Source of the DNA: a virus
Virus record (IMG/VR): IMGVR_UViG_3300049915_000235
Span: 1-25,736 of that record
Direction: 5' to 3' (one strand)
DNA: 25,736 bases
In this document: one piece after another, positions 1-16,863 of the stretch
How positions within the stretch are numbered: position 1 is the stretch's first letter
Layout: each line of letters opens with the position of its first letter
Position numbers and translations under genes: made by a program
Notes under the pieces: generated by a model
Databases searched by the model: none
What the model saw: only the letters and a program-made list of their open reading frames with translations
Told to the model about the DNA's origin: nothing

Positions 1-118
1 GATGGTAAGAATGGCTGAAATGCAAAAAAAGTTAGTGAAAGAGGAAGCAGATCGCATGGAATCTATGGACTCCTGGAAAGCAAGAATATTAGGATTATCT
101 AAAGACGATGCAGTATAA
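1..118 (+). CDS. C-terminal end of an unidentified protein (5'-truncated)
   Basis: An open frame enters from the left edge and stops at TAA 116-118. About 38 codons are visible, with in-frame ATGs at 2 and 11, so it may begin here or be the tail of a longer gene. The visible peptide is highly charged and probably helical, with many Lys and Glu residues, and ends in SKDDAV. Its stop lies inside the first codons of the following oxygenase gene, which starts at 108, so the two probably form one transcription unit. The family cannot be recognised from this fragment. A small terminase subunit or another packaging protein is possible by position only. Confidence 0.5.
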   Translation, partial: MVRMAEMQKKLVKEEADRMESMDSWKARILGLSKDDAV

Positions 119-3462: not shown

Positions 3463-3495
3463 AAGTTAAAAGTAACTTTAAAAGTAACTTTTTTT
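3461..3495 (+). terminator. Possible weak intrinsic terminator after terL
   Basis: An 8-bp A/T-rich stem can form between AAAAGTTA (3461-3468) and TAACTTTT (3485-3492), followed by more T residues. A shorter alternative pairs AAAGTTA (3462-3468) with TAACTTT (3473-3479) across a 4-nt loop. The lack of G/C in the stem makes efficient termination doubtful. Confidence 0.4.
3468..3491 (+). repeat. Perfect tandem 12-bp repeat in the terL-portal gap
   Basis: AAAAGTAACTTT occurs twice back to back (3468-3479 and 3480-3491), with a related AAAAGTTA directly before it. It could be the product of slippage, a protein-binding site, or part of the terminator hairpin. Nothing in the sequence decides which. 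Confidence 0.7.
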
Positions 3496-3501
3496 ACTTA
3501 T

Positions 3502-3507
3502 TATAAT
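3502..3507 (+). promoter_or_regulatory. Possible -10 element TATAAT before the portal gene
   Basis: A perfect TATAAT stands 22 nt before the portal ATG in the 67-nt gap after terL. No good -35 hexamer is seen 16-18 nt upstream (only A/T-rich sequence). With this element transcription would start near 3514, at the GTGTAAT box, leaving a leader of about 16 nt. Confidence 0.35.
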
Positions 3508-3513
3508 ATATAG

Positions 3514-3520
3514 GTGTAAT
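3514..3520 (+). promoter_or_regulatory. GTGTAAT box before the portal gene
   Basis: An exact GTGTAAT lies 9 nt before the ATG at 3530. There is no purine-rich Shine-Dalgarno sequence between them. It is one of six copies of this box placed just before gene starts in the window. Confidence 0.55.
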
Positions 3521-3529
3521 TCTCGACAA

Positions 3530-5494
3530 ATGGCTAAAAGAAAATATACTAAGAAATCTGAATACTGGAAAAAGTTTGACCAAAGTCAACCTTTGGACAA
3601 TATAATGATATCAAATTCTGCTCAATGGTCTCCAGAGTTATCTGGAGAAGGATTTTACCAATCGATAGCGAGTGAATACAGTAGAGGTGGTAAAGTCGAT
3701 ACCCAAACAAGAAAGAATCGAGCGGCTTTAGGCACAAAGGCTTCTAAATACGAAAACATTCATAAGGGGCTGCTTCCATACCATTTCAGCGCAGAAGGGA
3801 TACATATCAGAGAAGCTATTGAATTGTGCCAAAAAGCTTACTGTAATATTTCTATATTTAGAAACGCAATTGATATTATGTCTGAATTTGCTAATGCAGA
3901 AATTATGCTAGAGGGCGGTAGTGAAGTTGCTAGAAATTTTATACAAAAATGGTTTGACAAAATTAACTTATGGTTTTTAAAAGATCAATTTTTTAGAGAG
4001 TATTATCGATCAGGAAATGTTTTCCTATATACCTTAGAAGGTAAAATTGATTTAAATGATTTGAGAAGATCTTACAGAACAGAGATTCTTGGACTCAAAG
4101 GTAAAATTCCATTAAGGTATATCATCCTAAATCCATATGACATCGTAAGAAGGCATAGCTCTTCATTTTCTGACTCTTTGTATGAAAAGATATTAAGCGA
4201 GTATGAGATAGAAAGGCTAAAAAGCCCAAAGAACGATTTAGATAAGCAAATATTTGAATCCTTGTCTCCTGAGGCTAAGAAGAAAGTTAAGGACAATGCT
4301 TACTTGAGGGATGGTGTGAAAGTCCCTCTTGATCCTAAATATCTTAGATACTGCTTTTATAAAAAACAAGATTATGAGCCATTTGCTATTCCATTTGGAT
4401 TTTCTGTTTTAGACGACATTAACTTTAAGCTAGAGCTTAAAAAAATTGATCAAGCTATTACTAGAACAATCGAAAATGTGATACTCTTAATCACAATGGG
4501 GGCTGAGCCAGACAAAGGAGGAGTCAATCCAACTAACATGGTGGCTATGCAAAAGCTTTTTCAAAATGAAAGTGTTGGCAGGGTTTTAGTCAGTGACTAT
4601 ACAACTAAAGCACAATTTGTTATACCAGAAATTAATAAGGTTTTAGGTGCTGAAAAATATGAGATTGTCAATCAAGATATCAAGGAAGGCTTGCAGAATA
4701 TAATTGTTGGCCAAGAAAAATTCTCAAATACTGCAGTTAAGGCTGAAATATTCCTAGAAAGGTTAAAAGAGTCGAGGAATGCATTTTTAAAGCAATTTCT
4801 TCAGCCAGAAATTAATCAGATTTGCAAAAACTTAGGAATGAAATCTATACCCCAAGCAAAATTTGAAGAAGTGAATGTTAAGGATGAAACACAACTTCAA
4901 AGAGTAACTACAAGATTAATGGAGATAGGAATACTGACTCCGCAGCAAGGTGTAGACGTTATGAAAACTGGAGTATTCCCAGAATCAAAAGAGATTTCGC
5001 CTGCTCAAGAAAAATTTGTAGAAGAGAGAGAAATGGGGTACTACAATCCTTTAGTAGGTGGAGTACCTATGATTGAAGGAGAAACTTCAACTCAGACACC
5101 TAAGTCTGCTGGTAGACCAACTGGCACGTCAGGAATTCCGAAAGAAGCTGCCGCTAAAGAAACGTATGGCAGAACAGATATACAAAATGTAGTATATGCA
5201 ACTGAGCAATTCACAGAAGAAGCTAAGAAAATATTAAAAACTCATAAAAAAATAAAAAGATTAAATAAAGGGCATCAAAAACTTATAAGTGAATTATGTT
5301 CTAAAATAGTAGTATCTTCTGAGCAAGAAAATTGGAATAAAAACTTTGAAAGCGTTGTCAAAGATTCTGAAAAGATTATGGATTTAAATACTTTAGAAGG
5401 CGTAGATAAAATATGCTTAGAGCATCAAATAGAAGAATACCCAGCTGCACTACTATATCATAGTAAAAAAAATAAAAGCAAAAAATCTGTGTAA
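3530..5494 (+). CDS. Portal protein
   Basis: This 654-residue protein is the probable portal, the dodecameric ring at the head vertex through which DNA passes and to which the terminase and neck bind. It directly follows terL, the usual place, and the length fits. Visible support includes a helical region followed by the YYRSGNVFLY strand (159-167), typical of portal wing domains. A long helical stretch follows, and then a C-terminal region with a proline- and glycine-rich GYYNPLVGGVP segment, also often seen in portals. The last 100 residues are lysine-rich and may reach into the capsid. The start has no Shine-Dalgarno sequence but follows a GTGTAAT box. The stop overlaps the next frame in the form TAATG. 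No other family fits as well. Confidence 0.85.
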   Translation: MAKRKYTKKSEYWKKFDQSQPLDNIMISNSAQWSPELSGEGFYQSIASEYSRGGKVDTQTRKNRAALGTKASKYENIHKGLLPYHFSAEGIHIREAIELCQKAYCNISIFRNAIDIMSEFANAEIMLEGGSEVARNFIQKWFDKINLWFLKDQFFREYYRSGNVFLYTLEGKIDLNDLRRSYRTEILGLKGKIPLRYIILNPYDIVRRHSSSFSDSLYEKILSEYEIERLKSPKNDLDKQIFESLSPEAKKKVKDNAYLRDGVKVPLDPKYLRYCFYKKQDYEPFAIPFGFSVLDDINFKLELKKIDQAITRTIENVILLITMGAEPDKGGVNPTNMVAMQKLFQNESVGRVLVSDYTTKAQFVIPEINKVLGAEKYEIVNQDIKEGLQNIIVGQEKFSNTAVKAEIFLERLKESRNAFLKQFLQPEINQICKNLGMKSIPQAKFEEVNVKDETQLQRVTTRLMEIGILTPQQGVDVMKTGVFPESKEISPAQEKFVEEREMGYYNPLVGGVPMIEGETSTQTPKSAGRPTGTSGIPKEAAAKETYGRTDIQNVVYATEQFTEEAKKILKTHKKIKRLNKGHQKLISELCSKIVVSSEQENWNKNFESVVKDSEKIMDLNTLEGVDKICLEHQIEEYPAALLYHSKKNKSKKSV

Positions 5495-5495
5495 T
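5489..5495 (+). promoter_or_regulatory. GTGTAAT box before the prohead protease gene
   Basis: An exact GTGTAAT covers the end of the portal gene, including its TAA stop. It lies exactly 7 nt before the ATG at 5503. The same 7-nt spacing occurs at three other starts, which favours 5503 over the ATG at 5494 that overlaps the box. Confidence 0.5.
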
Positions 5496-5502
5496 GCTTT
5501 GT

Positions 5503-7110
5503 ATGAAAGCTCCTTTTAAATATAAAACAACTTTTTCGCAGAGCTCGCTAGCTTCGCTTGAAATTGAGTCTGAAGAAGGTATCTCAACTGCTTCGCTAAA
5601 ACCTCTTTTACCCCTCATCCCTGAAAATGTAAATCTTGAAAGAAATCTAGACTTGCTGGGTGTTGCTTTTAATGCTGCGGTTGCAAACAAATTTAATAAT
5701 AATGGTGATGGAATTGAAACAGCGACAGCTGTAGCCATTAAAGATTATTTTATACACAAACCTGCGAACCTCGAGCACAATAGAGAGAATATAGTAGGCC
5801 ATATTGTAAATGCTGGATTATCTGAATACAATTCTCAGTCTGGTAACTTGCTTGATGAGAAGGAAGTCGCTGGAACAAACGAGGCATTTAATATAGCTTT
5901 AGCGGCAGTAGTGTATAAAATAGCTAATCCTTCATTCGCTCAGTTGGTAGAAGATAGCGGAGACGAAGACTCGGATAACTATCAAGTAGTTTCTGCTAGC
6001 TGGGAGCTTGGTTTTAATAAGTATTATATTGCATTAGGCAGTGATGACCTTAAGGAAGCTGAACTTATTACGGATGAAAACCAAATTAAAGAATTTTCAC
6101 AATACTTGATTACTCAAGGAGGAGTAGGTAAAACTGAAGACGGAGTAAAAGTAAGCAGGTTGGTAATCGGAGATGTTTATCCTTTAGGAATTGGTTTTAC
6201 CGCTAAACCAGCCGCCGATGTTAAAGGCGTCATTCATTATAACGATGATGACAAGGAAGAACAAAATAGCTTGGCATCGTATCCAAAAACGGAAAAAATA
6301 GAAATTAATAAGACCTTTTTAAACCCTTTTTTACAAAAAGAATATAAAAAAATTTCCCAGAATAATAAAAAAGGGGTAATCTTACAAGATAACACAAAAT
6401 TTAACATTATGGAATCACAAGAATTAATTCAAGAATTCAAATCTGCATTAGCCGAGCACAAGTTCGACAAGGAAGCAGTCGCTTCTATGACAGAAACATT
6501 CACTCAAGCTATCAAGCAAAAAGATGAAGAGTATTTGTCAAACGTCGAAGCAGCAAAAAATGCGGAGGCAGAATTATTGAAGCAGCAAGAAGAGCTCAAG
6601 GCTTCTGTAGAAAAACTTCAAACCGAGCTTAAAGAAGCTCAGTCTGCAGTTGAATCTTTAGAAGCTGAGAAGACTCAAGAGCTTATCAAAGCTACCTTCA
6701 ATGAAAGAATGGGTGCCCTTGATTCTGAGTACGATCTAGAAGACGAAGACAAAAAGATTGTTGCTTCAGAGTTGAACGAACTTGACGTATCTGCTGAATC
6801 ATTTGCTGATTATAAGGCTAAGTTCGAAAAAGTGTGGCAGCACAAAAATAAAGCTTTCATTGAAGAGCAAGCGAAAGCTTTTCAAGAAAAATTAAACGAA
6901 GCTGTTGAAGCTAAATTAAAAGAAGTTCAAACTAGTGAAGCGTCAGAAGTTGAATCAACTGAAGAAGTAACACCTGAAGAAGTTCTTGATAACGCCGAAG
7001 CTTCTAATGTAGAAATTTCAAATTCAAGCGAAACATTGTCTGAAGAGCCAGAAACTCTTACTGAGAGATTCCAAAAAGCTTTCAAAGACAACGTTGTTGT
7101 AAAATACTAA
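5503..7110 (+). CDS. Prohead maturation protease fused to a scaffold-like domain
   Basis: From the ATG at 5503 the protein has 535 residues. The frame also has an ATG at 5494, but that one overlaps the upstream stop and the GTGTAAT box, so the later start is preferred. The N-terminal 250 residues look like a phage prohead serine protease: LEHNR...IVGHIV carries a candidate catalytic H92, and YQVVSASWELG carries candidate S164 or S166. Residues after about 300 are a long, acidic, Glu/Lys/Ala-rich coiled coil like an assembly scaffold. An in-frame ATG at 6409 (codon 303), just where the scaffold-like part begins, could start a free scaffold as in lambda C/Nu3, but it has no clear ribosome site. 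Position between portal and capsid genes supports the call. The protease residues are inferred by eye. Confidence 0.75.
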   Translation: MKAPFKYKTTFSQSSLASLEIESEEGISTASLKPLLPLIPENVNLERNLDLLGVAFNAAVANKFNNNGDGIETATAVAIKDYFIHKPANLEHNRENIVGHIVNAGLSEYNSQSGNLLDEKEVAGTNEAFNIALAAVVYKIANPSFAQLVEDSGDEDSDNYQVVSASWELGFNKYYIALGSDDLKEAELITDENQIKEFSQYLITQGGVGKTEDGVKVSRLVIGDVYPLGIGFTAKPAADVKGVIHYNDDDKEEQNSLASYPKTEKIEINKTFLNPFLQKEYKKISQNNKKGVILQDNTKFNIMESQELIQEFKSALAEHKFDKEAVASMTETFTQAIKQKDEEYLSNVEAAKNAEAELLKQQEELKASVEKLQTELKEAQSAVESLEAEKTQELIKATFNERMGALDSEYDLEDEDKKIVASELNELDVSAESFADYKAKFEKVWQHKNKAFIEEQAKAFQEKLNEAVEAKLKEVQTSEASEVESTEEVTPEEVLDNAEASNVEISNSSETLSEEPETLTERFQKAFKDNVVVKY

Positions 7111-7135
7111 AATTTATTAATTAAAGGAAATCAAA

Positions 7136-7762
7136 ATGGGACTAAGAATATTACCATTCAGACAGTACGACGAAAACGATGTTATTAATCTTTTTGCTGC
7201 CAAAAGCGGTCAAGAAGTTGATAATCTCGATGATGCCCTAGGCACTGCAAAAGTGCATGGCGGAGTTTTCGTTCAAGTTGAAGTCGGAGACCTTAATAAC
7301 GATCCAATTGAATATGGAGCTGATTCCTACTTGGGCAAGACTGATTACCCCCATATAGGTGCCAACCAATATCCAACTGTTCCGCATAAGGTCGAACTCG
7401 CAGACGGATCCTCTAAAGCATTAGGGATCACTCTTAACCAAGTCGCTAAAGCTGACGAGAATGGAGAGAAGCTTCTCTATTATCCTCAAAAAGCTTTAGA
7501 AAATCACGCAGTGCTTCCTGGTCAAGCAGTACCTGTAGCTCGTAAGGGTATCTTTACTCTTCACGAATCTGCATTTGATGTTGCTGACTGGGGTACAGAT
7601 GCCGCTATCGGAAATACGCTTGTCGTTACTAGTGACGGACAAGTTTCTGGACAGGCTGCTGCAGACGTTAGTGGTGTAGGAACCGTTCTCGCTACTGGAT
7701 CTCGCTCAGAACCTCTTGGTTCTCTTAGCGGAAATTACGCAATTTGTGCAATTGATTGCTAA
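7136..7762 (+). CDS. Putative capsid decoration or head structural protein
   Basis: This 208-residue protein has no motif I can assign with certainty. It is acidic in the middle and rich in Gly, Ala and Val. The last third (TLVVTSDGQVSG to YAICAID) reads as short beta strands with a GxVLATGSR turn, as in many small head decoration or stabilisation proteins. Its position directly before the major capsid gene is the usual one for such a protein. It has a good Shine-Dalgarno sequence (AAAGGA), 7-8 nt before the ATG, and lies 25 nt after the protease-scaffold gene. It is likely made in quantity with the capsid protein. It could also be a head fibre protein. Confidence 0.5.
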   Translation: MGLRILPFRQYDENDVINLFAAKSGQEVDNLDDALGTAKVHGGVFVQVEVGDLNNDPIEYGADSYLGKTDYPHIGANQYPTVPHKVELADGSSKALGITLNQVAKADENGEKLLYYPQKALENHAVLPGQAVPVARKGIFTLHESAFDVADWGTDAAIGNTLVVTSDGQVSGQAAADVSGVGTVLATGSRSEPLGSLSGNYAICAIDC

Positions 7763-7783
7763 ACTAAAGGAGAAATTACGAAA

Positions 7784-8896
7784 ATGAATATTACATTAAA
7801 AAGAACAGAAGAGCAAGTTGAACTCGTAAAAGCAATGGCTTCGAAAAATCGCGAAACCGCATATGAGGCTCAAGCAGCTCTAGCAGCTTTCTTGGCTCCA
7901 GTGTTGGCAGAAGTAATTAACAATGCTCCTACTTTGAGTAACTTGTTTCAAACTTTATCTTTCGATGCAGATGATAATCCAAGTATTCCATTGGATCTTT
8001 ACTATGACGTAGAGGATGAAGATTACATCCAGGTTTACAGCCAGTCTGTACCAGGTGGTCTTCCAACCAGTCAAGTACAACCTAGCTTCAGCGAAATGAA
8101 GGTAACTACTTACAATCTTGATAGCGCAGTATCTTTCGACAAGAAATATGCAGCAAAATCTCGTCTTGATGTAGTTGGTAAAACCTTTACTCGCGTTGCT
8201 CAAGAGCTTTTGCTTAAGCAAGAGCGTACTTCGGCTAACTTGATCATGGGAGCTTTGAAAAAAGCCGAAACCAATGGTCAAAAACACGTTATTGACTGCT
8301 CTGTAGACAAAAGAGTTATGCTTGACGATTTTAATCGCCTTATGACTCTTGCTAAAAGAATCAACACTTCTTACAGTGGCGGAACCCCAACTGATCGCAG
8401 AAGTGGAGTTACAGACCTTATTTGTTCACCAGAAGTAGTACAAGAGCTTCGCTCCTTGGCCTACAACCCAGTGAACACAAAAAATGCAGCTGGAACTGAT
8501 GCTGTTGCAGGTAATCCTCCGATTGCTGCTACTGACGATATGCGTGAAAGCATTTATAACAATGCTGGAATTCCTGAGTTCTATGGCGTTTCCATTATGG
8601 AAATCAATGAGCTTGGTGATGGTCAAAAGTACAACAAGATCTATAGCACAATTTCTGGTTCAGCTTTAAGCAGTGGCGAAGAAATTATTCTTGGTCTTGA
8701 TCGTAGCCGTGACTCTCTCATGAGAGTTCTTTCTCGCGACTCTGAGAGTGGCGCTGAAATGAGCCTTGTCGCAGATGATCAGTACAGTGTTCGTCAGCAA
8801 AAAATCGGATACTATGGATCCCTTGAAGAAGGACGCGTCATCCTTGATGATCGTGCTCTTTACGGATTGGTCGCTTCAGGCCTTACTGGAATTTAA
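7784..8896 (+). CDS. Major capsid protein (probable HK97 fold)
   Basis: This 370-residue protein is the likely shell subunit. It follows portal, protease-scaffold and decoration genes in standard order and is the right length. It has a strong Shine-Dalgarno sequence (AAAGGAG) and is followed by the strongest terminator in the window, as expected for an abundant product. It begins with a charged helix (residues 1-40). Then comes an extended segment rich in Asp, Pro and Tyr (65-100, possibly the E-loop region), a long helical spine around 130-165, and a C-terminal part with beta-rich blocks and the segment QQKIGYYGSLEEGRVI, similar in style to other HK97-fold capsids. The fold is inferred from context and pattern, not from a unique motif. 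Confidence 0.85.
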   Translation: MNITLKRTEEQVELVKAMASKNRETAYEAQAALAAFLAPVLAEVINNAPTLSNLFQTLSFDADDNPSIPLDLYYDVEDEDYIQVYSQSVPGGLPTSQVQPSFSEMKVTTYNLDSAVSFDKKYAAKSRLDVVGKTFTRVAQELLLKQERTSANLIMGALKKAETNGQKHVIDCSVDKRVMLDDFNRLMTLAKRINTSYSGGTPTDRRSGVTDLICSPEVVQELRSLAYNPVNTKNAAGTDAVAGNPPIAATDDMRESIYNNAGIPEFYGVSIMEINELGDGQKYNKIYSTISGSALSSGEEIILGLDRSRDSLMRVLSRDSESGAEMSLVADDQYSVRQQKIGYYGSLEEGRVILDDRALYGLVASGLTGI

Positions 8897-8924
8897 TTCC
8901 CCAAAACTTAACCCTTAACCAAAG

Positions 8925-8948
8925 AAGCTCGCTACGGCGAGCTTTTTT
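8925..8948 (+). terminator. Intrinsic terminator after the major capsid gene
   Basis: A perfect 8-bp stem AAGCTCGC/GCGAGCTT (8925-8932 with 8937-8944) encloses the loop TACG and is followed by a T run to 8948. As RNA the loop is C(UACG)G, a very stable UNCG tetraloop. It ends the packaging-head transcription unit. Confidence 0.92.
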
Positions 8949-8962
8949 GTTTTCTATTAAAC

Positions 8963-8991
8963 TTGAAAAAAGTGTATATTCATTGTATAAT
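8963..8991 (+). promoter_or_regulatory. Consensus sigma70-type promoter before the neck genes
   Basis: TTGAAA (8963-8968) is followed after exactly 17 nt by TATAAT (8986-8991), 20 nt before the ATG at 9012. It lies directly after the capsid terminator, so the two downstream genes can be transcribed independently of the head genes. Confidence 0.78.
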
Positions 8992-9011
8992 AAAAAGGAA
9001 AGGTAAAAGGT

Positions 9012-9443
9012 ATGAAAAAAACAAACACAAAGAAGAGTTCGCCAAAAGCTCAGTCAAAAGCTTCTAAGAAGCCTAAGAAAAATTTGATCGAAGAATTACA
9101 ATCTATGGAACAAACTACAGGTAAAGAATACATTCAGAAAACTAAAGAGCTTGAAGACATTCTTGGAGTAAAAGAAGTTAATCCATTCAAAACAGCAAAT
9201 GCAAGCGTATTCCAAGAAAACTTGTCAGAAATGACTCTTGTAGATATGCAGTCATTAGCAGTAAGAGTCGGCGTAATGCCTTCAGCTAATCGCACTAATT
9301 TAAAAAAGAGATTAATGAAGGAGTTTGAGCACAGAAATAAATCTAGAACAATTATCGGAGGAGCTGATTCTAGGCAGGTTGGGCTTAACACAAACAGCCC
9401 TGACTTTAAGGAAGTATCTAAAATATTAAGAGAGGGAATGTAA
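9012..9443 (+). CDS. Small basic protein with a SAP/HeH-like C-terminal motif
   Basis: This 143-residue protein starts with a very lysine- and serine-rich stretch (residues 1-23), followed by an acidic-basic helix. Residues 71-108 (LSEMTLVDMQSLAVRVG followed by NRTNLKKRLMKEFEHR) resemble the two-helix SAP or HeH DNA-binding motif, found in several phage head-completion and DNA-associated proteins. It has a good ribosome site (AGGAAAGG) and its own promoter at 8963. The TTG start of the next gene follows its stop directly. A role in head completion or as a DNA-binding virion protein is suggested by position and the basic tail. It could also be regulatory. Motif assignment is by eye. Confidence 0.5.
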   Translation: MKKTNTKKSSPKAQSKASKKPKKNLIEELQSMEQTTGKEYIQKTKELEDILGVKEVNPFKTANASVFQENLSEMTLVDMQSLAVRVGVMPSANRTNLKKRLMKEFEHRNKSRTIIGGADSRQVGLNTNSPDFKEVSKILREGM

Positions 9444-9444
9444 A

Positions 9445-9909
9445 TTGAGTAATATAGGAGATTTAGCTCAGGAAATATTTGATCATGAATTTGATTCAGA
9501 CACAGAAGTTGCTACAGTATCTTCTATTTCTGGATGGTTAGACTCTCATATAGGCAATCTTAATACTATGATACATACATCCTTTGATGTTGTCAATGGT
9601 GTTATTGAGCCTGAAGCTGACTTCAAAAATGAAGAAAAAGCTATATATCGAGCGATGTACCTAAAAAACTTCAACTCATCAATGTCTCGAAAAACTCTGC
9701 AGGGAGCCACTAAATCAAGCGACTTTATACAAATACGTGACTCCGATGGCTCGATGATCGTAAGACCCAATAAGAACACTGCAGCGGGCGCATACAGATC
9801 TTTAGCTAGCGGTTATGATCAAGAACTAAAAGAATTGGTTTCTGCATACCTTTCTTTTGAAAGCAAGCCAATACAAGTTGCAGGAAACGACGCTCCATCA
9901 AGCCAATAA
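9445..9909 (+). CDS. Putative neck or head-tail connector protein
   Basis: This 154-residue protein most likely starts with TTG at 9445, because GAGGG stands 8 nt upstream and no better in-frame start precedes it. It is mainly helical. The first half is acidic (SGWLDSHIGNLNTMIH, a probable amphipathic helix), the middle has a KAIYRAMYLKNF helix and a short IQIRDSDGSM strand, and the end is a helix (YDQELKELVSAYL) with a loose polar tail. The arrangement resembles helical head-tail adaptors of the HK97 gp6 type, and the location between capsid and tail genes agrees. No diagnostic residues are known to me, so the call rests on context. The next gene begins 14 nt after its stop. Confidence 0.5.
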   Translation: MSNIGDLAQEIFDHEFDSDTEVATVSSISGWLDSHIGNLNTMIHTSFDVVNGVIEPEADFKNEEKAIYRAMYLKNFNSSMSRKTLQGATKSSDFIQIRDSDGSMIVRPNKNTAAGAYRSLASGYDQELKELVSAYLSFESKPIQVAGNDAPSSQ

Positions 9910-9916
9910 GTGTAAT
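9910..9916 (+). promoter_or_regulatory. GTGTAAT box before the gpM-like tail gene
   Basis: An exact GTGTAAT starts just after the preceding TAA stop and stands 7 nt before the GTG start at 9924. No Shine-Dalgarno sequence is present. Confidence 0.55.
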
Positions 9917-9923
9917 TTAGAAT

Positions 9924-11390
9924 GTGGACAGAACATACAACACTAGCTTACAAGGCCTTACAACTACTTGGCCACAAAGAAACGGTCAATACTTAGCTCC
10001 TGATTACGGTTATTCTGCTTCGTATGAAGGAGCTATCCGAATGTTTAGTTACGGAGATGGTTTTTATGCAATTTCGCCTAAAGGTGTAAATAATATAACG
10101 TTTTCTCTATCTTTAAATTATAGTAATTTGCACGATAGTGAAGCTAGGCAAATTATAGATTTTTTAGAGACTTCTAAGGGCCTTGATTTTCCCTTTGTTC
10201 CTCCAGACCCATTTTGCAAAAGAAATATATTTAGATGCGTAGGATTCTCTCATACTTTTAATAAAGAGAATTTAAATAATATATCTATTAATTTAAAAAC
10301 AAACAAGCAAAGTTCTTTAAATATAGAGTCCGCCATTCCTGGATCTTCAGAAACGCTATTGAATGCACCTCGAGCTACAGAATCGCATACCATGTATTTA
10401 TCAATTAATTCTGATGACGAGTCGAACTTTTTACCATCAAATGGCGCACAACATTATAAGAATTATTCTGACTATTGTAAAATAGGTTATAAGGAATACT
10501 TGAGAAGTATATTCACTAGAGAAGAGATGTTAAAGGTTTTGAATAATGATTTTACTGATGGTATTTTAAGTCTTCCCTGGTATACAATGGGGCTTATAGA
10601 AAGAGCTGCTTTAGACACTTATGGGATGCCTGATAGTACCAACGATGTCAGATCAATACATCCTGGTTATTATGATCCTCCTAGCTCAACTGATAATAAC
10701 TCTAAGCCTTTTGAAATCAGAGTTGTTCCTTGGACGCAACCTTTTGGGTATCATACGCCTGATGACACTCTTTACGCTACCTCGATATACGTAATCAATG
10801 GGCTAAACTATCTTTCGCAGTGGGCCTACCCTAAGGATATAGTAGTATTTAAGCCTGATTATGAAGCGCAGACTTTTGATAAATATTATTATTGCAAGAA
10901 AAGTCATTTTGCAAGGCCGCTACAGAGCGCTTTCAATTCTTGGCTAGACGGATCAAGTTTAGATACTGGCAGTGGTACATGGGTAGATGATCACAGAATT
11001 CCAGGTAGTACCGATGAAAGACATTGGACTAAAAACTTTTTTTGGGAACCTAGTTACGCCTCTACAATTTCTCAACAATCAAGAATACTAAGTAAGGTTT
11101 ATGATGGAGAAAAAGTCGAGGTTCTATCTGACGGAAGAAATACAAACCCGCTAGTATTCGATGTTCAGTTTAATAACAGAGACGATAGAGAAGCTTATGC
11201 AATTTTACATTTTCTCGAAAATAGAAAAGGTTATGTCCGCTTTAAATGGGATTCTGTACCAGAAATTTATGATGTCGCAGATAGATACTTTCTATGCAAT
11301 GCTTGGAGTTTTTCTAAAAGATATATAGACAATAACTCTATCAAGGCTACTTTTATTGAAGACGCGCTTGGGGCTGATTTAGGTTATTAA
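9924..11390 (+). CDS. Tail protein with two lambda gpM-like domains
   Basis: This 488-residue protein contains two copies of one domain resembling the minor tail protein family of lambda gpM. Copy one spans about 15-126 and copy two about 374-482. Both have a P-x-Y start, a (G/Y)DG turn (44-46 and 393-395) and an asparagine before the central strands. Both then have an (I/L)-x-FLE helix end (80-82 and 430-432), a K/R-G-x-x-x-F strand and a Cys-containing strand near the end (C105 and C458). Copies are separated by about 245 residues rich in Tyr, Asp and Pro. In lambda, gpM joins tape measure and tip proteins, so a tail-tip role is likely. The start is GTG: the overlapping ATG at 9922 is in a frame that soon stops. 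Its stop overlaps that of the convergent gene. Confidence 0.75.
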   Translation: MDRTYNTSLQGLTTTWPQRNGQYLAPDYGYSASYEGAIRMFSYGDGFYAISPKGVNNITFSLSLNYSNLHDSEARQIIDFLETSKGLDFPFVPPDPFCKRNIFRCVGFSHTFNKENLNNISINLKTNKQSSLNIESAIPGSSETLLNAPRATESHTMYLSINSDDESNFLPSNGAQHYKNYSDYCKIGYKEYLRSIFTREEMLKVLNNDFTDGILSLPWYTMGLIERAALDTYGMPDSTNDVRSIHPGYYDPPSSTDNNSKPFEIRVVPWTQPFGYHTPDDTLYATSIYVINGLNYLSQWAYPKDIVVFKPDYEAQTFDKYYYCKKSHFARPLQSAFNSWLDGSSLDTGSGTWVDDHRIPGSTDERHWTKNFFWEPSYASTISQQSRILSKVYDGEKVEVLSDGRNTNPLVFDVQFNNRDDREAYAILHFLENRKGYVRFKWDSVPEIYDVADRYFLCNAWSFSKRYIDNNSIKATFIEDALGADLGY

Positions 11391-12358
11391 CGAACAGATT
11401 CTTTGATTGTCACAGTACCTTCCATAAAGCCATTCTGGCTAATGGATATTTCTTGGGTATCTATTTGACCAGCAATTGTTAATACTCGATTAATTTCTTG
11501 CCCAGGTTGATTCTCTGCACCAATTGCTTTTAATAAAATGCTAATTGTGGCATTTCTTTTATCATGACCCTTAAAGTCAATAACCTTTCCAATATCTTCG
11601 CCTTGAACAGTAACCTCTCTATTTATGTTACCGAGATTAACTTCTACGGGATGTTTTTTGCCTACTACATAAATAGGTATTCTCTCATACGATTCTGTCC
11701 AGCTAATAGACACTGGGTGCTCAATTCCAATGGTTGCTCGATTATAACCATTTAATTCAGTCGTAACGTGATTCTGAGTGTTTAGTGGAGTTATGCTTAT
11801 ATCTGGTTCAGCAGGAGGAACTGCAGGGGTAAATGTACCCCCCTCTAACTCATCTGGATTAGTTGTGCCTATATTTCTGTAATCATCATTCACGCTAGCT
11901 GTTGAGCTGCCATCTCTGTCTGATGTCATTTTATAAATAGAGAAATCAGCGCTTATACTTGCTGGTTTATAAGGCTCTAATGTTAAATTAAAAGAATTAA
12001 GATATGTTTGCCCAAAATTAAAACCCGCCAACCTTCCGTACAACTCATCCGCTTCCCCAGTTTTACTTATAATTTGATCGCTATTACCGTTTAAATAAAA
12101 ATCTGTATTTAAGCTCGCAGTGAGTGGAGCGTCAGGGAAATATCTATGCAGTTGAGATTGTCCTAAAGTCCTCATTGGAGGAACTGAGGCTGATACTTGT
12201 AGGCCAGCGCTTGTTGAATAAATATAATCGTTTGCGCTTGCATTAACTGGATAGTCTGGATAGTCTGCAGCGTTAGCTCTAGAGTGATAGCTCGTGCCAA
12301 CCGCTCCTATATAAAGCGGTGTTTCTGTATATCTATAGAAACTTCTTTGGTTACTCAT
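11387..12358 (-). CDS. Tail-tube-like protein, paralogue of the FN3 protein N-terminus
   Basis: This 323-residue protein is beta-rich, with no signal peptide or membrane segment. It shares a core with the N-terminal part of the 2004-residue protein at 16867-22881. The best match is PIYVVGKKHPVEV (228-240) against PIYVVGKDRPVEV (236-248). A second matching block covers 111-143 against 86-118, with a common L...S/Y.....P..SAD motif, and both end in a similar S-x-x-x-G strand. The pattern (a G-x-x-x-P strand, a duplex of strands, then a variable loop) resembles phage tail tube proteins, but the similarity is not diagnostic. It may be a tail tube or a tube-capping protein. It is the last gene of the minus-strand block and is preceded by a GTGTAAT box rather than a Shine-Dalgarno sequence. 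Confidence 0.55.
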   Translation of the reverse strand: MSNQRSFYRYTETPLYIGAVGTSYHSRANAADYPDYPVNASANDYIYSTSAGLQVSASVPPMRTLGQSQLHRYFPDAPLTASLNTDFYLNGNSDQIISKTGEADELYGRLAGFNFGQTYLNSFNLTLEPYKPASISADFSIYKMTSDRDGSSTASVNDDYRNIGTTNPDELEGGTFTPAVPPAEPDISITPLNTQNHVTTELNGYNRATIGIEHPVSISWTESYERIPIYVVGKKHPVEVNLGNINREVTVQGEDIGKVIDFKGHDKRNATISILLKAIGAENQPGQEINRVLTIAGQIDTQEISISQNGFMEGTVTIKESVR

Positions 12359-12365
12359 ATTCTAT

Positions 12366-12372
12366 ATTACAC
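12366..12372 (-). promoter_or_regulatory. GTGTAAT box before the 323-residue tail protein
   Basis: An exact GTGTAAT (minus strand) begins in the last base of the upstream TAG stop. It stands 7 nt before the ATG at 12358, with no Shine-Dalgarno sequence. Confidence 0.55.
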
Positions 12373-12878
12373 TAAATTACCTTGGCTACCACCTTTATTT
12401 GTTGAGTATTCCAATTTTTCCAACCCCAATTCCCGTTAGCCTCAAGTTTTATAACACCATACGAAGGAAGTTGAACCGTAACTGTATTCGCTTCTATGCC
12501 TTGTATTTGTGCGCCCCAAAATTGCGCCCCCAAGGAAGTGGGGGGATTAGTCGGTTGTAAATCTACTCTTACAGAGTTTCCACCGCCATCTGTATCTCTG
12601 GCGAACAACGAAAATATAAGATCGTCAGTGCCTAAGTTATGGGTAAAAGATAGGGTGGCGTTATTAGCTACAAAAGTAAGACCAGCATAGTTAACCCATC
12701 CGCTGCTCCAGCCTGCTGAGTTTGATGAGTTTGATGAGTTCGATGATACATATGTGAGCAAGTCTGAAATTTTTACATTCTGAGTAGTCCCGTCTGCCTT
12801 AGCTACTAACAACAAATCATTTTCACCTATTGAAGATGTTGTATTTAAATCCCTTACTTTTATACTTTCGATTGACAT
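12372..12878 (-). CDS. Short tail fibre or tip protein
   Basis: This 168-residue protein has an N-terminal module of about 45 residues (IKVRDL...SIGENDLLLVAK...KISDLLTYV). The same module opens two neighbouring fibre proteins. A Ser/Asn linker made of NSS repeats (about 46-53) follows. The rest is a beta-rich domain with the segment LSFTHNLGTDD, frequent in fibre tip domains, and several Trp residues near the end (WGWKNW). It overlaps the upstream S74 fibre gene by 19 bp, so translation is probably coupled. Likely role: a trimeric fibre or tip part attached to the baseplate through the shared module. The exact family is not recognised. Confidence 0.6.
   Translation of the reverse strand: MSIESIKVRDLNTTSSIGENDLLLVAKADGTTQNVKISDLLTYVSSNSSNSSNSAGWSSGWVNYAGLTFVANNATLSFTHNLGTDDLIFSLFARDTDGGGNSVRVDLQPTNPPTSLGAQFWGAQIQGIEANTVTVQLPSYGVIKLEANGNWGWKNWNTQQIKVVAKVI
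12718..12744 (-). repeat. Three 9-bp tandem repeats coding Asn-Ser-Ser
   Basis: On the plus strand the unit is GAGTTTGAT, repeated three times with one change (GAGTTCGAT in the third copy). In the minus-strand gene it codes NSS units in the linker between anchor module and tip domain. Copy-number change would keep the frame and alter linker length. Confidence 0.85.
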
Positions 12879-14245
12879 ATCTTTTCTAATTCTTTAATTC
12901 TTTTTTCTTGATCTTTTACACACTCTATCAGTAATGGTATTATACTATTATATTTTACACTTTTAAAGCCATTTTCTTTATCTTTTACGGCTTCTGGCAA
13001 AACAAGCTCTACTTCTTGAGCAAGCACACCGTAATCTTTACCAGAATATTTTGGCTGCATTTCTTCTTTCCAGTCAAAAGATATTCCATTTATTTGTTTT
13101 ATTTTATTTATCGGACTATCTATTGTTTGGATGTTTTCCTTAAGTCTTTGGTCAGAGGCGCTATAGTATGCAACAACATCATTATAACAGAGCAGGTCTC
13201 CACTGGCGTCAATTTCTACACTCTTACTTCCTGATGTATAAAAACATATACTATCTAAATCTGAACTTTCTTCTGTTGTTATATAAGTATCATTGTCTGC
13301 ATCGGATATTCCTGTTAATAAGTCTGTGGTTGCGAAATCTCCCGTTTGACCCGTAGTGACAAACACACCAGTTTCTCCAGTAGTTACAAAATCTCCCGTT
13401 TGACCTGTAGTGACGAAAACGCCAGTTTCTCCAGTACTTACAAAATCTCCTATTTCTATTCCAGTTAATACGGGAACACCGCTAATCGTGAGTTCTTGGC
13501 TGAAGCCTCCTATTTGTCCTGTTGTGGTGCCAAAAATTCCACTAGTTCCTTTAAGATTATACCCACTAATATCGCCTGTGGTGGAGATATCAGTCACAGA
13601 TTCTACAAACATTTCTCCTGTAACATAAAGATTTCCTCCAATAGCTAAATCTCCAGTAACTCTAAAATCATGAAAAAATCCACTGGCACCACTCAATTGT
13701 TCTTCTGAATATATTAAATTAGAGCTTCCTGTGAATGATGAGCCGCTTTTGTATTGAATTGAGAAGTCGGGCCCACTAACGGTTGTCGTGGAGTTAGAAA
13801 ATGGAGACCATGCGTTATTGACGTAACCTTCAAATTGACCAAGTTCTGTATTGTATCTCATTAAGCCATTTGTTGGAGTTGGTCTTTGGGCGGATGATCC
13901 TGCGGGGAATTTAATCCCATCAGATGTAAAGATTCCTAATCCGTAATTTATCGGAGCAGAAAGATTTAATGGATTTATATTAATCCCTGATTTATTTACA
14001 ATTGCAGGAGTAAGTCCGTCGCAAGTTATCGAAGCAGTATTATCTCCAGTGTGAACGCTAAATTTGGTGTCGCCATCTAGATCTTCTATCTCTATATATT
14101 TTTTTAATTTATTTATAGATATTTTTGAAGTCCGTGCGGCGTTAGAGGTTTCAGCGCCTGATTCAGTTATGACTAAAAAATCAGTTGATTCATTTGTGAA
14201 ATCATCTGAAAATGTAGGTAAACCTCTTATTTTAACATTAGCCAT
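12860..14245 (-). CDS. Tail fibre protein with C-terminal S74 chaperone domain
   Basis: This 461-residue fibre protein opens with the anchor module (KIRGLP...STDFLVITE...KISINKLKKYI, 1-51) also seen in two neighbours. Residues 118-150 hold a fibre-type segment, GLMRYNTELGQFEGY followed by NNAW. Residues 266-307 are tandem nonapeptides (TG-E/Q-TG-V/D-FVT). The C-terminus is a Peptidase_S74 intramolecular chaperone: SDQRLKENI with the Ser364-Lys369 dyad, GVLAQEVELVLPE, and a final coiled coil (KDQEKRIKELEK). In known members this domain folds the trimer and cuts itself off at the serine. It is probably a host-contact fibre. It lies 12 nt after a small ORF, has a GTGTAAT box and overlaps the next gene by 19 bp. 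Confidence 0.88.
   Translation of the reverse strand: MANVKIRGLPTFSDDFTNESTDFLVITESGAETSNAARTSKISINKLKKYIEIEDLDGDTKFSVHTGDNTASITCDGLTPAIVNKSGININPLNLSAPINYGLGIFTSDGIKFPAGSSAQRPTPTNGLMRYNTELGQFEGYVNNAWSPFSNSTTTVSGPDFSIQYKSGSSFTGSSNLIYSEEQLSGASGFFHDFRVTGDLAIGGNLYVTGEMFVESVTDISTTGDISGYNLKGTSGIFGTTTGQIGGFSQELTISGVPVLTGIEIGDFVSTGETGVFVTTGQTGDFVTTGETGVFVTTGQTGDFATTDLLTGISDADNDTYITTEESSDLDSICFYTSGSKSVEIDASGDLLCYNDVVAYYSASDQRLKENIQTIDSPINKIKQINGISFDWKEEMQPKYSGKDYGVLAQEVELVLPEAVKDKENGFKSVKYNSIIPLLIECVKDQEKRIKELEKICQSKV
13325..13450 (-). repeat. 54-bp tandem repeat coding nonapeptides in the fibre shaft
   Basis: The plus-strand sequence AAATCTCC recurs at 13335, 13389 and 13443, a period of 54 bp (18 codons, two nonapeptides). 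The units differ at only a few bases between the first two copies. The peptide unit is TGETGVFVT/TGQTGDFVT. Confidence 0.85.
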
Positions 14246-14256
14246 ATATAGTATAT

Positions 14257-14263
14257 ATTACAC
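14257..14263 (-). promoter_or_regulatory. GTGTAAT box before the S74 fibre gene
   Basis: An exact GTGTAAT (minus strand) includes the TAA stop of the small upstream ORF. It stands 11 nt before the ATG at 14245. The intervening bases are A/T-rich with no Shine-Dalgarno sequence. Confidence 0.5.
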
Positions 14264-14491
14264 TTTTACAATTGATCCATTTTTATAATAAAGTTTTTCT
14301 TTATCATCGCTTTTATTTCGTATAATATTTTCTACATTAATATATTCAGAATCATCTACCACTACAACTTTTATTTCGTCTTTATTATGCGTTTTATCTA
14401 TATATTGCATAGCATCTAATCTTGGCTTTTTTGATTCAGCTGGAAATGCAAAAATAATTTGATCGTTTTTGTTTATGAATAAATGTATCAT
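14258..14491 (-). CDS. Small protein of unknown function in the fibre cassette
   Basis: This 77-residue protein begins with a hydrophobic strand-like segment (MIHLFINKNDQIIFAF) and continues as a charged, Lys/Asp-rich chain with a VVVVDD strand near the middle. It has no recognised domain. It is coupled to the adhesin gene upstream: its ATG overlaps that gene's TGA (ATGA at 14488-14491). Small proteins next to fibre genes are often fibre chaperones or assembly factors, which is only inference here. The reading is supported by tight coupling on both sides. Confidence 0.5.
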   Translation of the reverse strand: MIHLFINKNDQIIFAFPAESKKPRLDAMQYIDKTHNKDEIKVVVVDDSEYINVENIIRNKSDDKEKLYYKNGSIVKV

Positions 14492-15495
14492 CCTATTGTG
14501 CCTTTTAAGGTAGTGGAAGTAAAGTTTCCATTATTCAAAGTATTTGAGTTTATTGAAAAGCCATTCTTGCGTAATAAGTGTCCCGCAGCCCCTCCACTTC
14601 CTGCATTCCCAAACCCTGCTTTAGCTAAATCTCCACCAGGCATAGGGGCAAATGTATCATCAGAAAAAAGCGTTCCAGGAGCCCCGCCATTTATAGCGGT
14701 CCCATCATTTCCATTAGCGTTCCCAAGGCCGCCTTTTCCTGCAAATATGCCAGCGCCTCCACCACCCCCGCTATAAAGAGAGCCAGACCCACCTCCTCCA
14801 CCACCAAAAATACTTCCGCCATTATTTTCAATTTCAACATTATATTGCAAGCTAATTGCATCTCCACCATCTTTGCCATTTATGTCTGTGTTATAATTTA
14901 ATGCATTTCCACCATCTCCTCCCGCTCCATAAATCAAGCCTTCATTAATAATTTTAATGTAAGAGTTATTTTCCCACCCAGAGCCTGTTTGTAAGGCGGG
15001 CAAAGAACTATCTTTGGAATATACTACTCCTCTATTTATAAATATAATGGCTTCAGCTTCTGTAGTGTATCCTCTAGTTTGGAATAAAATTGACCTTAGA
15101 TTAACGTTAATTAATGTAGTCGCATTAATAATATGTATTGCTACAACAGACGTATTTCCATTTTCATTATCGCTAACTAAATTATCACCGTCATCTGTCT
15201 CTAACCAGCCATCATCAGAGCGCTCAAGTAATGTAGGGTAATCATCTTCTCCGTCTGCAATCAGATAATATCCAGGATTAGCATCCATAAATTCAAATTC
15301 AGAAAACTTAAAATCAGCGCCTAGCGAAAACCCGCTTAATGTTTGCCCATCATCACCTATCCTTGGAAACGATGAATTAAATGCAAAATTAGATATATCT
15401 CTGGTAGATAGAGAAGATGTGAGGTTTAATCCTCCAGCCTCACCCCTTATTCTCCCTAAGGAAATTGGTGAAGATTTGGAATTTATTTTGGTCAT
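14488..15495 (-). CDS. Adhesin with polyglycine domain, T-even gp38-like
   Basis: This 335-residue protein has an N-terminal module with ISLGRIRGEAG...LS and a KFSEF motif, shared with the gene before it. A negatively charged beta region follows (70-180), then a glycine-rich domain (190-305) of GGGGG-type runs broken by Asn, Tyr and Phe, such as IINEGLIYGAGGDGG and GGSIFGGGGGG. The layout is that of the polyglycine receptor-binding adhesins of T-even phages (gp38), in which loops between glycine runs contact the host surface. It is therefore a strong candidate for host recognition. It overlaps the upstream gene and the next ORF by 4 bp each. The high plus-strand proline coding here is the complement of glycine codons and not a gene. 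Confidence 0.72.
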   Translation of the reverse strand: MTKINSKSSPISLGRIRGEAGGLNLTSSLSTRDISNFAFNSSFPRIGDDGQTLSGFSLGADFKFSEFEFMDANPGYYLIADGEDDYPTLLERSDDGWLETDDGDNLVSDNENGNTSVVAIHIINATTLINVNLRSILFQTRGYTTEAEAIIFINRGVVYSKDSSLPALQTGSGWENNSYIKIINEGLIYGAGGDGGNALNYNTDINGKDGGDAISLQYNVEIENNGGSIFGGGGGGSGSLYSGGGGGAGIFAGKGGLGNANGNDGTAINGGAPGTLFSDDTFAPMPGGDLAKAGFGNAGSGGAAGHLLRKNGFSINSNTLNNGNFTSTTLKGTIG

Positions 15496-16067
15496 AATAG
15501 TTGAGTATAGGGCCCATAATTCGAAGGGTTTGCTACCGTTCCGTTATTAATTAAAATAATTTCTGAGTTTGCGGGCCAACTTGATTCCTGCAAATATAAA
15601 TTTTCAATGTCACCATTATTTGTGAACTCGTAAAAAACCCTTGCATACGGGAATCCAAAATTTCTACAAAATTCAGCAAATAAATACACTTCACCGTCGC
15701 TAGAACTTTCTGATTTATGTTTTATGATAGTTTCATTTCCTACTTTATCATCAGTTCTTAAAATTCTACCATTGTCATCTGTAATCAAAAAAGCTCCCGT
15801 ATCTTTTATCCTGCTGGAGTGGGGCTGCGAGCCGTCTTCAAACTCAGAGATTAAGAAGTTATTGTCATCATATCCGTCAAAGTTATAGAATTCGGAAAAT
15901 TTAATCTTTTCATCTGCAAAATTAGGAGCATTGACATCTCCCGTTCTATATTCATCTGCCAATTTTTCTTGTATAAATTTGTCTTGCTCAGATAGCCGCC
16001 CAAAACCATAAGAACTTTCACCTATAATTTCGCTGAAAGAAATCGGCCCTGAAGACGGAAGTGTCAT
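15492..16067 (-). CDS. Fibre or receptor-binding accessory protein
   Basis: This 191-residue protein starts with LPSSGPISFSEIIGES, the short tail fibre module found at the start of many phage fibre proteins, and KIKFSEFYNFDG (54-65). The same scheme opens the polyglycine adhesin downstream. The middle is acidic and polar, and the C-terminus (SEIILINNGTVANPSNYG) resembles the beginning of a polyglycine-type loop region but stops there. It may be a truncated relative of the adhesin, an anchor subunit, or a complete small tip protein. The ATG overlaps the TGA of the S74 gene before it, and its own stop overlaps the next ATG, so the three genes are coupled. Confidence 0.6.
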   Translation of the reverse strand: MTLPSSGPISFSEIIGESSYGFGRLSEQDKFIQEKLADEYRTGDVNAPNFADEKIKFSEFYNFDGYDDNNFLISEFEDGSQPHSSRIKDTGAFLITDDNGRILRTDDKVGNETIIKHKSESSSDGEVYLFAEFCRNFGFPYARVFYEFTNNGDIENLYLQESSWPANSEIILINNGTVANPSNYGPYTQLL

Positions 16068-16849
16068 TTTATTTGCTTGCTTAAATTTTCAATTTGTTTT
16101 TGTTGATCTTTTACAGCCTCAATTAATAGTCCGATAATATTTTGGTATGCTACCGCTTTTTTACCTTCAGGCAAGTCTTTCACGACCTCTGGAATCACTT
16201 GTTCTACTTCTTGAGCAATTAACCCCATATGGATTTTTTCTTGATCTTCAGAGTCTGTTCTTGTATATAGGCGACCATTAAGCCTTTTAACTTTCTGAAT
16301 AGCATGAGGGATTGGCCTGATGTTATCCTTAACGGAAATGTCAGAAAATGCGACAATGTCATTAGATGCATAAATAGATGTAGTCCCTACTACATTATGA
16401 ACCTCAAGAGCTGCTAGACTGTTGTTTCCGATAGATGCAGATTCCAGATCTGCGCCTCCGTTTTGACCTATAGAAATATGGTTATTAAAACCAACATTTT
16501 CATCAAAAACTTTTACCGCAGCAATATCTTGAGCATCGTTTATAGTGACAAAACTATTACCTAAATTAGTAAGAGCGTTTGTGTTGGATTCTATACTTGA
16601 GTTTAATGTTGAGAAAATATCGCCTGTTCCGTTAGCGCTTATGTCATTAGTGATAGTTAAGTCAACTGCAGATACGTCATTAAAGCTTGGGTTTCTATCT
16701 CCGCCTTGGTATAAGCCAACCTCTAGTTCAGCTATTTTCATACTCTTGGTTTGATCTGCGCTTATATCAACTATAGGGAAAACATCATTAGTCGCATCTA
16801 ATTCATTAGCACTTAAAAGAGTTAAGTCTGATATTTTAGTTTCTGCCAT
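16064..16849 (-). CDS. Short tail fibre protein with S74 chaperone domain
   Basis: This 261-residue protein has three parts. Residues 1-50 are the anchor module (KISDLTLL...NDVFPIVD...KIAELEVGLY) shared with two neighbours. Residues 50-165 form a polar shaft with probable beta and coiled segments. From S169 comes a Peptidase_S74 chaperone domain: SDISVKDNI with the Ser169-Lys174 dyad, MGLIAQEVEQVIPE, and a coiled-coil end (VKDQQKQIENLSKQIK). Known S74 domains trimerise the fibre and are released by self-cleavage at the serine. The S74 part is similar to that of the 461-residue fibre, suggesting duplication. A GTGTAAT box stands 7 nt before its ATG, and it overlaps the next gene by 4 bp. Confidence 0.88.
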   Translation of the reverse strand: MAETKISDLTLLSANELDATNDVFPIVDISADQTKSMKIAELEVGLYQGGDRNPSFNDVSAVDLTITNDISANGTGDIFSTLNSSIESNTNALTNLGNSFVTINDAQDIAAVKVFDENVGFNNHISIGQNGGADLESASIGNNSLAALEVHNVVGTTSIYASNDIVAFSDISVKDNIRPIPHAIQKVKRLNGRLYTRTDSEDQEKIHMGLIAQEVEQVIPEVVKDLPEGKKAVAYQNIIGLLIEAVKDQQKQIENLSKQIK

Positions 16850-16856
16850 ATAAGAT

Positions 16857-16863
16857 ATTACAC
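16857..16863 (-). promoter_or_regulatory. GTGTAAT box before the short S74 fibre gene
   Basis: An exact GTGTAAT (minus strand) follows the TAA of the FN3 gene and stands 7 nt before the ATG at 16849. The gap is A/T-rich with no Shine-Dalgarno sequence. Confidence 0.55.

Follow-up and report, generated by a model that had tools for sequence, protein, structure and literature searches.

A short GTGTAW box at a fixed distance before start codons, a likely one-element promoter in an uncultivated marine phage lineage

What is the function of a heptamer that recurs directly before gene starts on both strands of a phage genome? This question is raised by a viral stretch of 25,736 nucleotides (nt) (IMG/VR record IMGVR_UViG_3300049915_000235, positions 1 to 25,736; hereafter the window), in which GTGTAAT precedes six start codons. 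An earlier note on this DNA had proposed either a –10-like late promoter without a –35 element, with transcription starting at or next to the start codon, or a nonstandard translation signal. The sequence evidence presented here supports the promoter: the spacing, the initiator bases, the lack of a –35 element, boxes before phage transfer-messenger RNA (tmRNA) genes, and a conserved phage sigma gene all point to it. We consider it likely that GTGTAW (W, A or T) serves as the –10-type core in a class of one-element promoters, most likely read by a phage-encoded sigma factor resembling the extracytoplasmic function (ECF) type on the host core RNA polymerase (RNAP), and that its transcripts are mostly leaderless and mainly non-early.

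A scan of both strands found the six exact GTGTAAT copies listed in the earlier note and no others, and the box-to-start spacings given there (9, 7, 7, 7, 11, and 7 nt, to the starts at 3530, 5503, 9924, 12358, 14245, and 16849, respectively) are correct. With RNA predicted to start 9 nt downstream of GTGTAW, the boxes at 5489..5495 (plus strand, overlapping the stop codon of the preceding gene), 9910..9916 (plus), 12366..12372 (minus), and 16857..16863 (minus) would leave leaders of 0 nt, the +1 falling on the A of ATG at 5503, the G of a GTG start codon at 9924, and the A of ATG at 12358 and 16849, respectively; the boxes at 3514..3520 (plus) and 14257..14263 (minus) would give +1 at 3528 and 14249, with leaders of 2 and 4 nt. 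All six predicted +1 positions carry a pyrimidine-purine (YR) step. The downstream genes encode a 654-amino-acid (aa) protein (3530..5494, plus), which follows the terminase gene and is regarded as the portal by position only; a 535-aa protein (5503..7110, plus); a minor tail protein (9924..11390, plus; phrog_14, PF05939); a 323-aa protein without a PHROG match (11387..12358, minus); and two tail fiber-like proteins with Peptidase_S74 matches (12860..14245 and 16064..16849, both minus). Neither the 654-aa nor the 535-aa protein has a PHROG or Pfam match. The latter would be 538 aa long from the ATG at 5494; the ATG at 5503 is the better start, because the upstream ATG overlaps the box and the relatives G001 and G002 (see below) keep the spacing from the box to 5503.

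The number of copies is only mildly unusual (shuffled windows average 2.7, and 3 of 100 reach six), and some boxes overlap a preceding stop codon, as would suit an origin in chance, AT-rich composition, and stop codons (GTG TAA) at gene ends. It is the placement, not the count, that gives the strong signal, since the chance of such a position is about 0.002 per copy (19 genes × 5 positions over 2 × 25,736 positions). The motif scan of relatives that the earlier note had called for was made on eight related records (G001 to G008), whose genes were called with a home-made caller that was checked by a caller-free count and by counts anchored with tblastn. GTGTAA ranked first among all 6-mers within 30 nt before starts in seven records (G001, G002, G003, G005, G006, G007, and G008) and fourth in G004. 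The pattern GTGTAATN{5,12}ATG outnumbered its backwards counterpart 20 to 2 in G001, 17 to 2 in G002, 7 to 0 in G003, 8 to 0 in G006, 6 to 0 in G007, 9 to 0 in G008, and 5 to 1 in G004, with 4 against 5 in G005; this forward excess in relatives answers the objection that the motif had been chosen after the fact. A box as frequent inside genes as before them had been named as the outcome that would speak against a promoter; GTGTAW proved 38- to 121-fold denser 7 to 13 nt before starts than within genes in all eight records.

GTGTAW favors one distance to the start codon. Across the eight records, with repeated upstream stretches counted once, there are 63 cases at 8 nt, 25 at 9 nt, and 15 at 10 nt, with none at 7 nt, two at 6 nt, and none below. 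G001 and G002 share orthologs, so the 63 sites are not all independent; a second set was compiled of 1,008 starts from 158 loci, without those already found in the eight records and with repeats counted once. It gave 72 cases at 8 nt, 25 at 9 nt, and none below 8 nt, and each of five control words tested had 0 at 8 nt. The caller-free count returned 54 GTGTAW at 8 nt versus 0 for the control word, and no 8-nt GTGTAW peak is seen in the examined stretches of phages T4, HTVC008M, phiEco32, and P-SSM2. Because the peak at one exact distance recurs in independent loci while the control words stay flat, the explanation by chance and composition is refuted, and we give it next to no credence. The one-sided distribution, a hard lower edge followed by a tail, is the pattern expected of transcription that begins 9 nt past GTGTAW, with no start codon able to lie before the RNA start.

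Relatives of individual window genes were counted by tblastn anchoring, with repeated upstream stretches counted once and genes too near contig ends skipped. GTGTAW lies within 45 nt upstream of 56 of the 77 distinct relatives of the 654-aa gene and of 36 of the 78 distinct relatives of the 535-aa gene. A contrast is offered by the 370-aa gene at 7784..8896 (plus), the major capsid gene by position only, which has a Shine-Dalgarno sequence and no box: GTGTAW precedes 0 of its 76 distinct relatives, and Shine-Dalgarno words precede 55 of the 76. We therefore take it to lie downstream within the same transcript. The earlier note had listed this start and that at 9012 among those with a Shine-Dalgarno sequence instead of a box; the relatives bear this out for 7784, whereas 9012 has the variant GTGTAT 34 nt upstream together with a Shine-Dalgarno-like leader, and the stretch with this variant is also present in G002.

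Around the box, the bases are those of a –10-region element at a fixed distance from a transcription start, a start inferred from the distance peak and the YR step. Start codons at 8 nt are preceded by a pyrimidine in 63 of 63 cases in the eight records, versus 554 of 1,039 boxless genes (404 of 626 boxless genes with a gap), and in 71 of 72 in the second set, versus 369 of 804. Where the start codon lies 11 to 17 nt away, a YR step occurs at box +8/+9 in 16 of 26 cases in the eight records and in 21 of 33 in the second set, which is the top value among the offsets tested. Because the step stays at +8/+9 when the start codon lies further on, it appears tied to the box rather than the codon. 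Among 176 nonredundant sites (256 before similar sites were merged), no conserved –35 is present, as in a –10-only phage promoter of the T4 late manner; the information content is at most 0.07 bit from –50 to –5 and 0.05 to 0.13 bit from –4 to –1. Small positional excesses are found upstream of the box for TTTT at –6 (27 sites) and AGAC at –19 (6 sites). An enrichment of TTACAC was considered as a –35 and rejected, as it is the box on the opposite strand.

Shine-Dalgarno words are scarce behind boxes (4 of 119, versus 176 of 1,039 boxless genes; 4 of 137 versus 248 of 804 in the second set) and commoner in the longer leaders of the eight records (14 of 39, versus 16% in shuffles). Among genes with a gap of at least 30 nt, an intrinsic terminator precedes the start in 6 of 60 that have a box, with the box standing between the two, versus 8 of 391 boxless genes. 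Few Shine-Dalgarno words and a tight spacing to start codons are also what a nonstandard translation initiation signal in the mRNA would produce, the second proposal of the earlier note. That proposal is contradicted by the phage tmRNA genes, of which all five found are preceded by a box, 26 nt upstream of the predicted 5′ end in G001 (gene at G001:66699-67062, L165:6699-7062) and G002, 8 nt in G003, 7 nt in G010, and 10 nt in G009, where the gene was detected by Rfam only; tmRNA being noncoding, these boxes argue against a purely translational signal. The one-sided distances, the YR step fixed to the box, boxes directly after terminators, and divergent pairs on opposite strands likewise disagree with translation, which we regard as highly improbable. 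One such pair, at G001:155877-155915, consists of overlapping divergent boxes that form the palindrome TTACACTAGTGTAA between two divergent genes. The predicted tag peptides of the phage tmRNA genes differ where ARAGORN gave one.

A promoter needs a reader, and the search for a phage-encoded sigma factor advised in the earlier note was successful in the relatives. An ECF-like sigma gene of 238 aa (G001:157606-158322 with stop, equal to L169:17606-18322) lies outside the window record and ends about 0.94 kb before window position 1, which corresponds to G001:159263 when aligned via a shared 191-aa gene. Its first match was phrog_1740, a sigma factor (E value of 5.6e-4). The gene is found by tblastn in seven of the eight records, and in the hitless G005 the first called gene lies just downstream of the sigma place; 96 stretches of the virus collection carry relatives. 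A single-sequence query gave no tblastn match at an E value of ≤1 in 50,697 phage records. The predicted protein consists of regions 2 and 4 flanking a Cys-rich insert. Among 38 diverse members, Pfam finds Sigma70_r2 in all 38 and Sigma70_r4_2 in 21 at an E value of ≤1, some of them weak; the G001 member scores 22.3 bits, under the Pfam cutoff of 24. No region 3 family is among the matches listed (25 of 31 families), and the presence of regions 2 and 4 without region 3 agrees with an ECF sigma; the bipartite ECF promoter with a –35 is not found, provided that GTGTAW is this sigma's promoter.

The AlphaFold model of the protein (mean pLDDT of 78, pTM of 0.41) retrieved no Foldseek match under an E value of 0.001 (the best being 0.012), and the best 50 matches listed are sigma factors, many of them ECF. 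Region 2 of the model aligns with 5uxx_A (Z score of 8.6, 2.1 Å over 75 residues) and region 4 with 3hug_E (Z score of 7.8, 3.0 Å over 72 residues), values that, as the alignment tool warns, can be common among helical folds. A sequence search of solved structures gave ECF sigma region 2 only at E values of 0.15 to 0.26, ranked under an unrelated repeat protein (0.0097). Four sigma carriers on contigs of metagenome-assembled genomes are labeled Halobacteriovorax, Flavobacteriales, Flavobacteriaceae, and an unnamed bacterium; because these labels disagree and may stem from binning, no host is claimed.

The box itself is well supported as a promoter, and the phage sigma is its probable reader. 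The box could instead be read by a host sigma or by a phage-modified host holoenzyme, the phage sigma reading something else. Such a reader would suit an associative link between sigma and box and the TTGACA-17-TATAAT-like promoters of boxless genes, from which it follows that the host holoenzyme probably transcribes some of the genome. However, the box is the leading non-sigma70 signal, the sigma gene accompanies it in seven of eight records with G005 beginning just beyond its place, and a characterized phage sigma, that of phiEco32, has a one-box consensus containing TGTA; a host reader is thus possible but rather unlikely. A third reader would be a phage RNAP, either multisubunit or single subunit, in the manner of phiKZ/AR9 or N4. 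AR9 late promoters likewise combine a short core, 6 nt, and an initiator, but the β′ N-terminal domain PF04997 is detected in 0 of the 8 records versus 14 of 14 positive controls, in a search of records that may be fragments and with β, other subunits, and single-subunit enzymes not searched for. Pfam scans of ten long proteins gave no polymerase family; ribonucleotide reductase, Clp-like AAA, bactofilin, and other families were matched, and three proteins were unmatched. We regard a phage RNAP as very unlikely.

Taken together, the host core RNAP carrying the phage ECF-like sigma would recognize GTGTAW with no need for a conserved –35, and RNA would start on the purine 9 nt downstream, after a pyrimidine. 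Most commonly this purine would be the first base of the start codon, and the mRNA would be leaderless; other transcripts would have a leader of a few nucleotides or of about 20 nt, sometimes with a Shine-Dalgarno sequence. The spacing fits start codons within a few nucleotides of the 5′ end, and such mRNAs would be translated without a leader. The class would serve mainly virion genes, other non-early genes, and the phage tmRNA.

Boxless genes offer a second view of the same arrangement. Sigma70-like promoters, defined as at least 10 of 12 consensus bases within 90 nt of the start, occur before 202 of 1,026 boxless genes, versus 41 in shuffles; in G001 at 90 to 152 kb and in the other seven records, 55 of these TTGACA-17-TATAAT-like elements end 6 nt before the start and 37 end 7 nt before it. 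Sigma70 promoters start RNA about 7 nt after the –10, and with this geometry these genes would be leaderless too; leaderless mRNAs thus seem to be general in the lineage, boxless genes included. The two classes are distributed differently between a region of small genes, whose limits were drawn after the gene table had been seen, and the rest of the genome: sigma70-like promoters at 4 to 10 nt precede 25 of 123 genes inside versus 8 of 117 outside in G001 (24 of 125 versus 9 of 104 in G002), whereas boxes precede 7 of 123 versus 27 of 117 (6 of 125 versus 26 of 104). The "late" of the earlier note stands insofar as gene position and type suggest it, boxes being depleted in the small-gene region. 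Because nonvirion genes such as ribonucleotide reductase also have boxes, the class is better described as non-early than as strictly late. We lean slightly toward the broader view that promoters and start codons have become fused throughout the lineage, with early sigma70 elements at 6 to 7 nt and a later phage sigma box at 8 nt, so that most promoter-proximal genes would be leaderless and only downstream genes would depend on Shine-Dalgarno sequences.

Several observations weigh against a phage sigma promoter with leaderless transcripts. No box lies within 45 nt of any of the 21 predicted tRNA genes, 21 of the 77 distinct relatives of the portal-like gene lack one, and 17 of the 56 boxed relatives have it at 18 nt, many of those listed having a TATAAT closer to the start. 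G004 and G005 give a weak signal, with no excess of GTGTAATN{5,12}ATG in G005, and the caller-free count includes five closer cases (one at 2 nt, one at 4 nt, and three at 6 nt). The YR step is not in excess for boxes at 9 nt (9 of 25), nor clearly so for those at 18 to 26 nt (8 of 21); some of these boxes may be chance occurrences or have another +1. The scarcity of Shine-Dalgarno words is partly a matter of base composition, shuffled windows having 7.5% versus the 3% observed, and the longer leaders of the second set have them in 11 of 46 cases, below the 31% of boxless genes. Terminators precede only 6 of 119 boxes. For the sigma, the scores from PHROG, Pfam, and fold comparison are modest when taken singly and gain strength because they agree; co-occurrence and the general behavior of the family are its only links to the box, and a region 4 domain is odd with no –35 to read.

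The window is the structural region of a tailed phage, as it contains, in addition to the minor tail protein and the Peptidase_S74 fibers, a terminase large subunit (phrog_2), a tape measure-like protein, and a 2,004-aa repeat protein with tail family matches. Coordinates in G001 identify positions 1..118 (plus) as the 3′ end of the gene next after the sigma gene. An ERCC4-type nuclease with an N-terminal C2H2-like zinc finger is encoded directly before the terminase (668-1597), and repeated AACTTT/AAAGTT units occupy 3463-3513, between the terminase and portal-like genes, as they do at the same place in relatives. There is no Rfam match in the window, and the portal-like protein has no match among PHROG, Pfam, or the named phages of the phage collection. 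Two queries retrieved relatives in 113 and 153 IMG/VR stretches, including records of 203, 194, and 205 kb; the window is part of an uncultivated marine phage lineage of about 200 kb. Relatives encode a DnaE-type DNA polymerase, a DnaB helicase, a primase-like protein, and both ribonucleotide reductase subunits. G001 further contains phage genes with DUF1549/DUF1553 and DUF1501 domains (G001:104263-108243, L167), families known from Planctomycetes, and a 1,024-aa protein with a bactofilin match (G001:20588-23662, L163).

Phage sigmas with one-box promoters of their own (T4, phiEco32, and 7-11) and leaderless mRNAs are already known; the open-access literature searched yielded no description of the motif, the sigma family, or a leaderless phage program that spans a lineage. 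If the proposal is true, one short element would set temporal control, the transcription start, and the translation start, and late infection may favor ribosomes that take leaderless messages. With the box rule, the transcription start of many genes can be predicted to the exact base from the genome alone, and the lineage would be a natural test of bacterial translation of leaderless messages and of phage program switching.

With regard to known systems, the lineage's sigma resembles the ECF sigmas (sigmaE, SigH, SigL, and SigW) in its region 2 plus region 4 architecture and differs from them in the Cys-rich insert between the domains and in presumed promoters without a –35. A close parallel for the box is with phiEco32 and 7-11, in which a phage sigma is described as directing middle and late genes from a short box of consensus tAATGTAtA (PMC4331800). 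This consensus and GTGTAW share TGTA, and a phage-encoded sigma is present in both systems; the lineage's sigma probably reads GTGTAW, a view helped by the phiEco32 sigma, which reads a box containing TGTA. However, no profile similarity is seen between the sigmas (hhalign probability of 0.1 versus gp36, a single-sequence template), and in the 45 kb of phiEco32 examined, extragenic matches lie mostly 34 to 61 nt before called starts, with one at 13 nt, so that leaders look usual there. Among 224 jumbo phages, sigmas are reported in group 2 and none in group 3 (PMC7824862). For AR9, a late promoter of the form AACA-6N-TA/G and leaders of 26 to 491 nt are described (PMC5312081). AR9/phiKZ promoters and the box have in common a short core, a fixed spacer, and an initiator purine, but the former are used by phage multisubunit RNAPs, for which the PF04997 search of the eight records came back empty.

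The cI message of phage lambda is a known leaderless mRNA. Such messages carry the start codon at the 5′ end (PMC9031893, PMC5312081), phage transcripts are said in passing in the AR9 paper to be "often leaderless" (PMC5312081), and 6 to 8% of starts in Prochlorococcus are given as within 10 nt (PMC5607370). What distinguishes the present lineage is that leaderlessness, read here from sequence only, would be a lineage-wide rule in two promoter classes.

T4 late promoters, recognized through gp55 with gp33 and gp45 as coactivators, have the consensus TATAAATA, which the lineage core GTGTAW does not match. They are described as –10-only elements read by a small phage sigma on the host core RNAP (PMC5780444), whereas the lineage's sigma has both region 2 and region 4. 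The position relative to the gene differs as well: of 12 NATAAATA boxes in the examined 35 kb of T4, 11 lie 12 to 28 nt before the next start and one lies 35 nt before it, and in a P-SSM2 stretch such boxes lie 16 to 27 nt before the start (six cases). The Pelagibacter phage HTVC008M (L307, L311, and L327) has 45 NATAAATA boxes in all, 17 with a long-frame start within 40 nt, and 9 of these 17 end exactly 5 nt before the start, so that its late genes with T4-type boxes are apparently leaderless. Because this cultured phage shows a similar fusion with T4-type boxes, the fusion of promoter and start codon is testable in an existing system.

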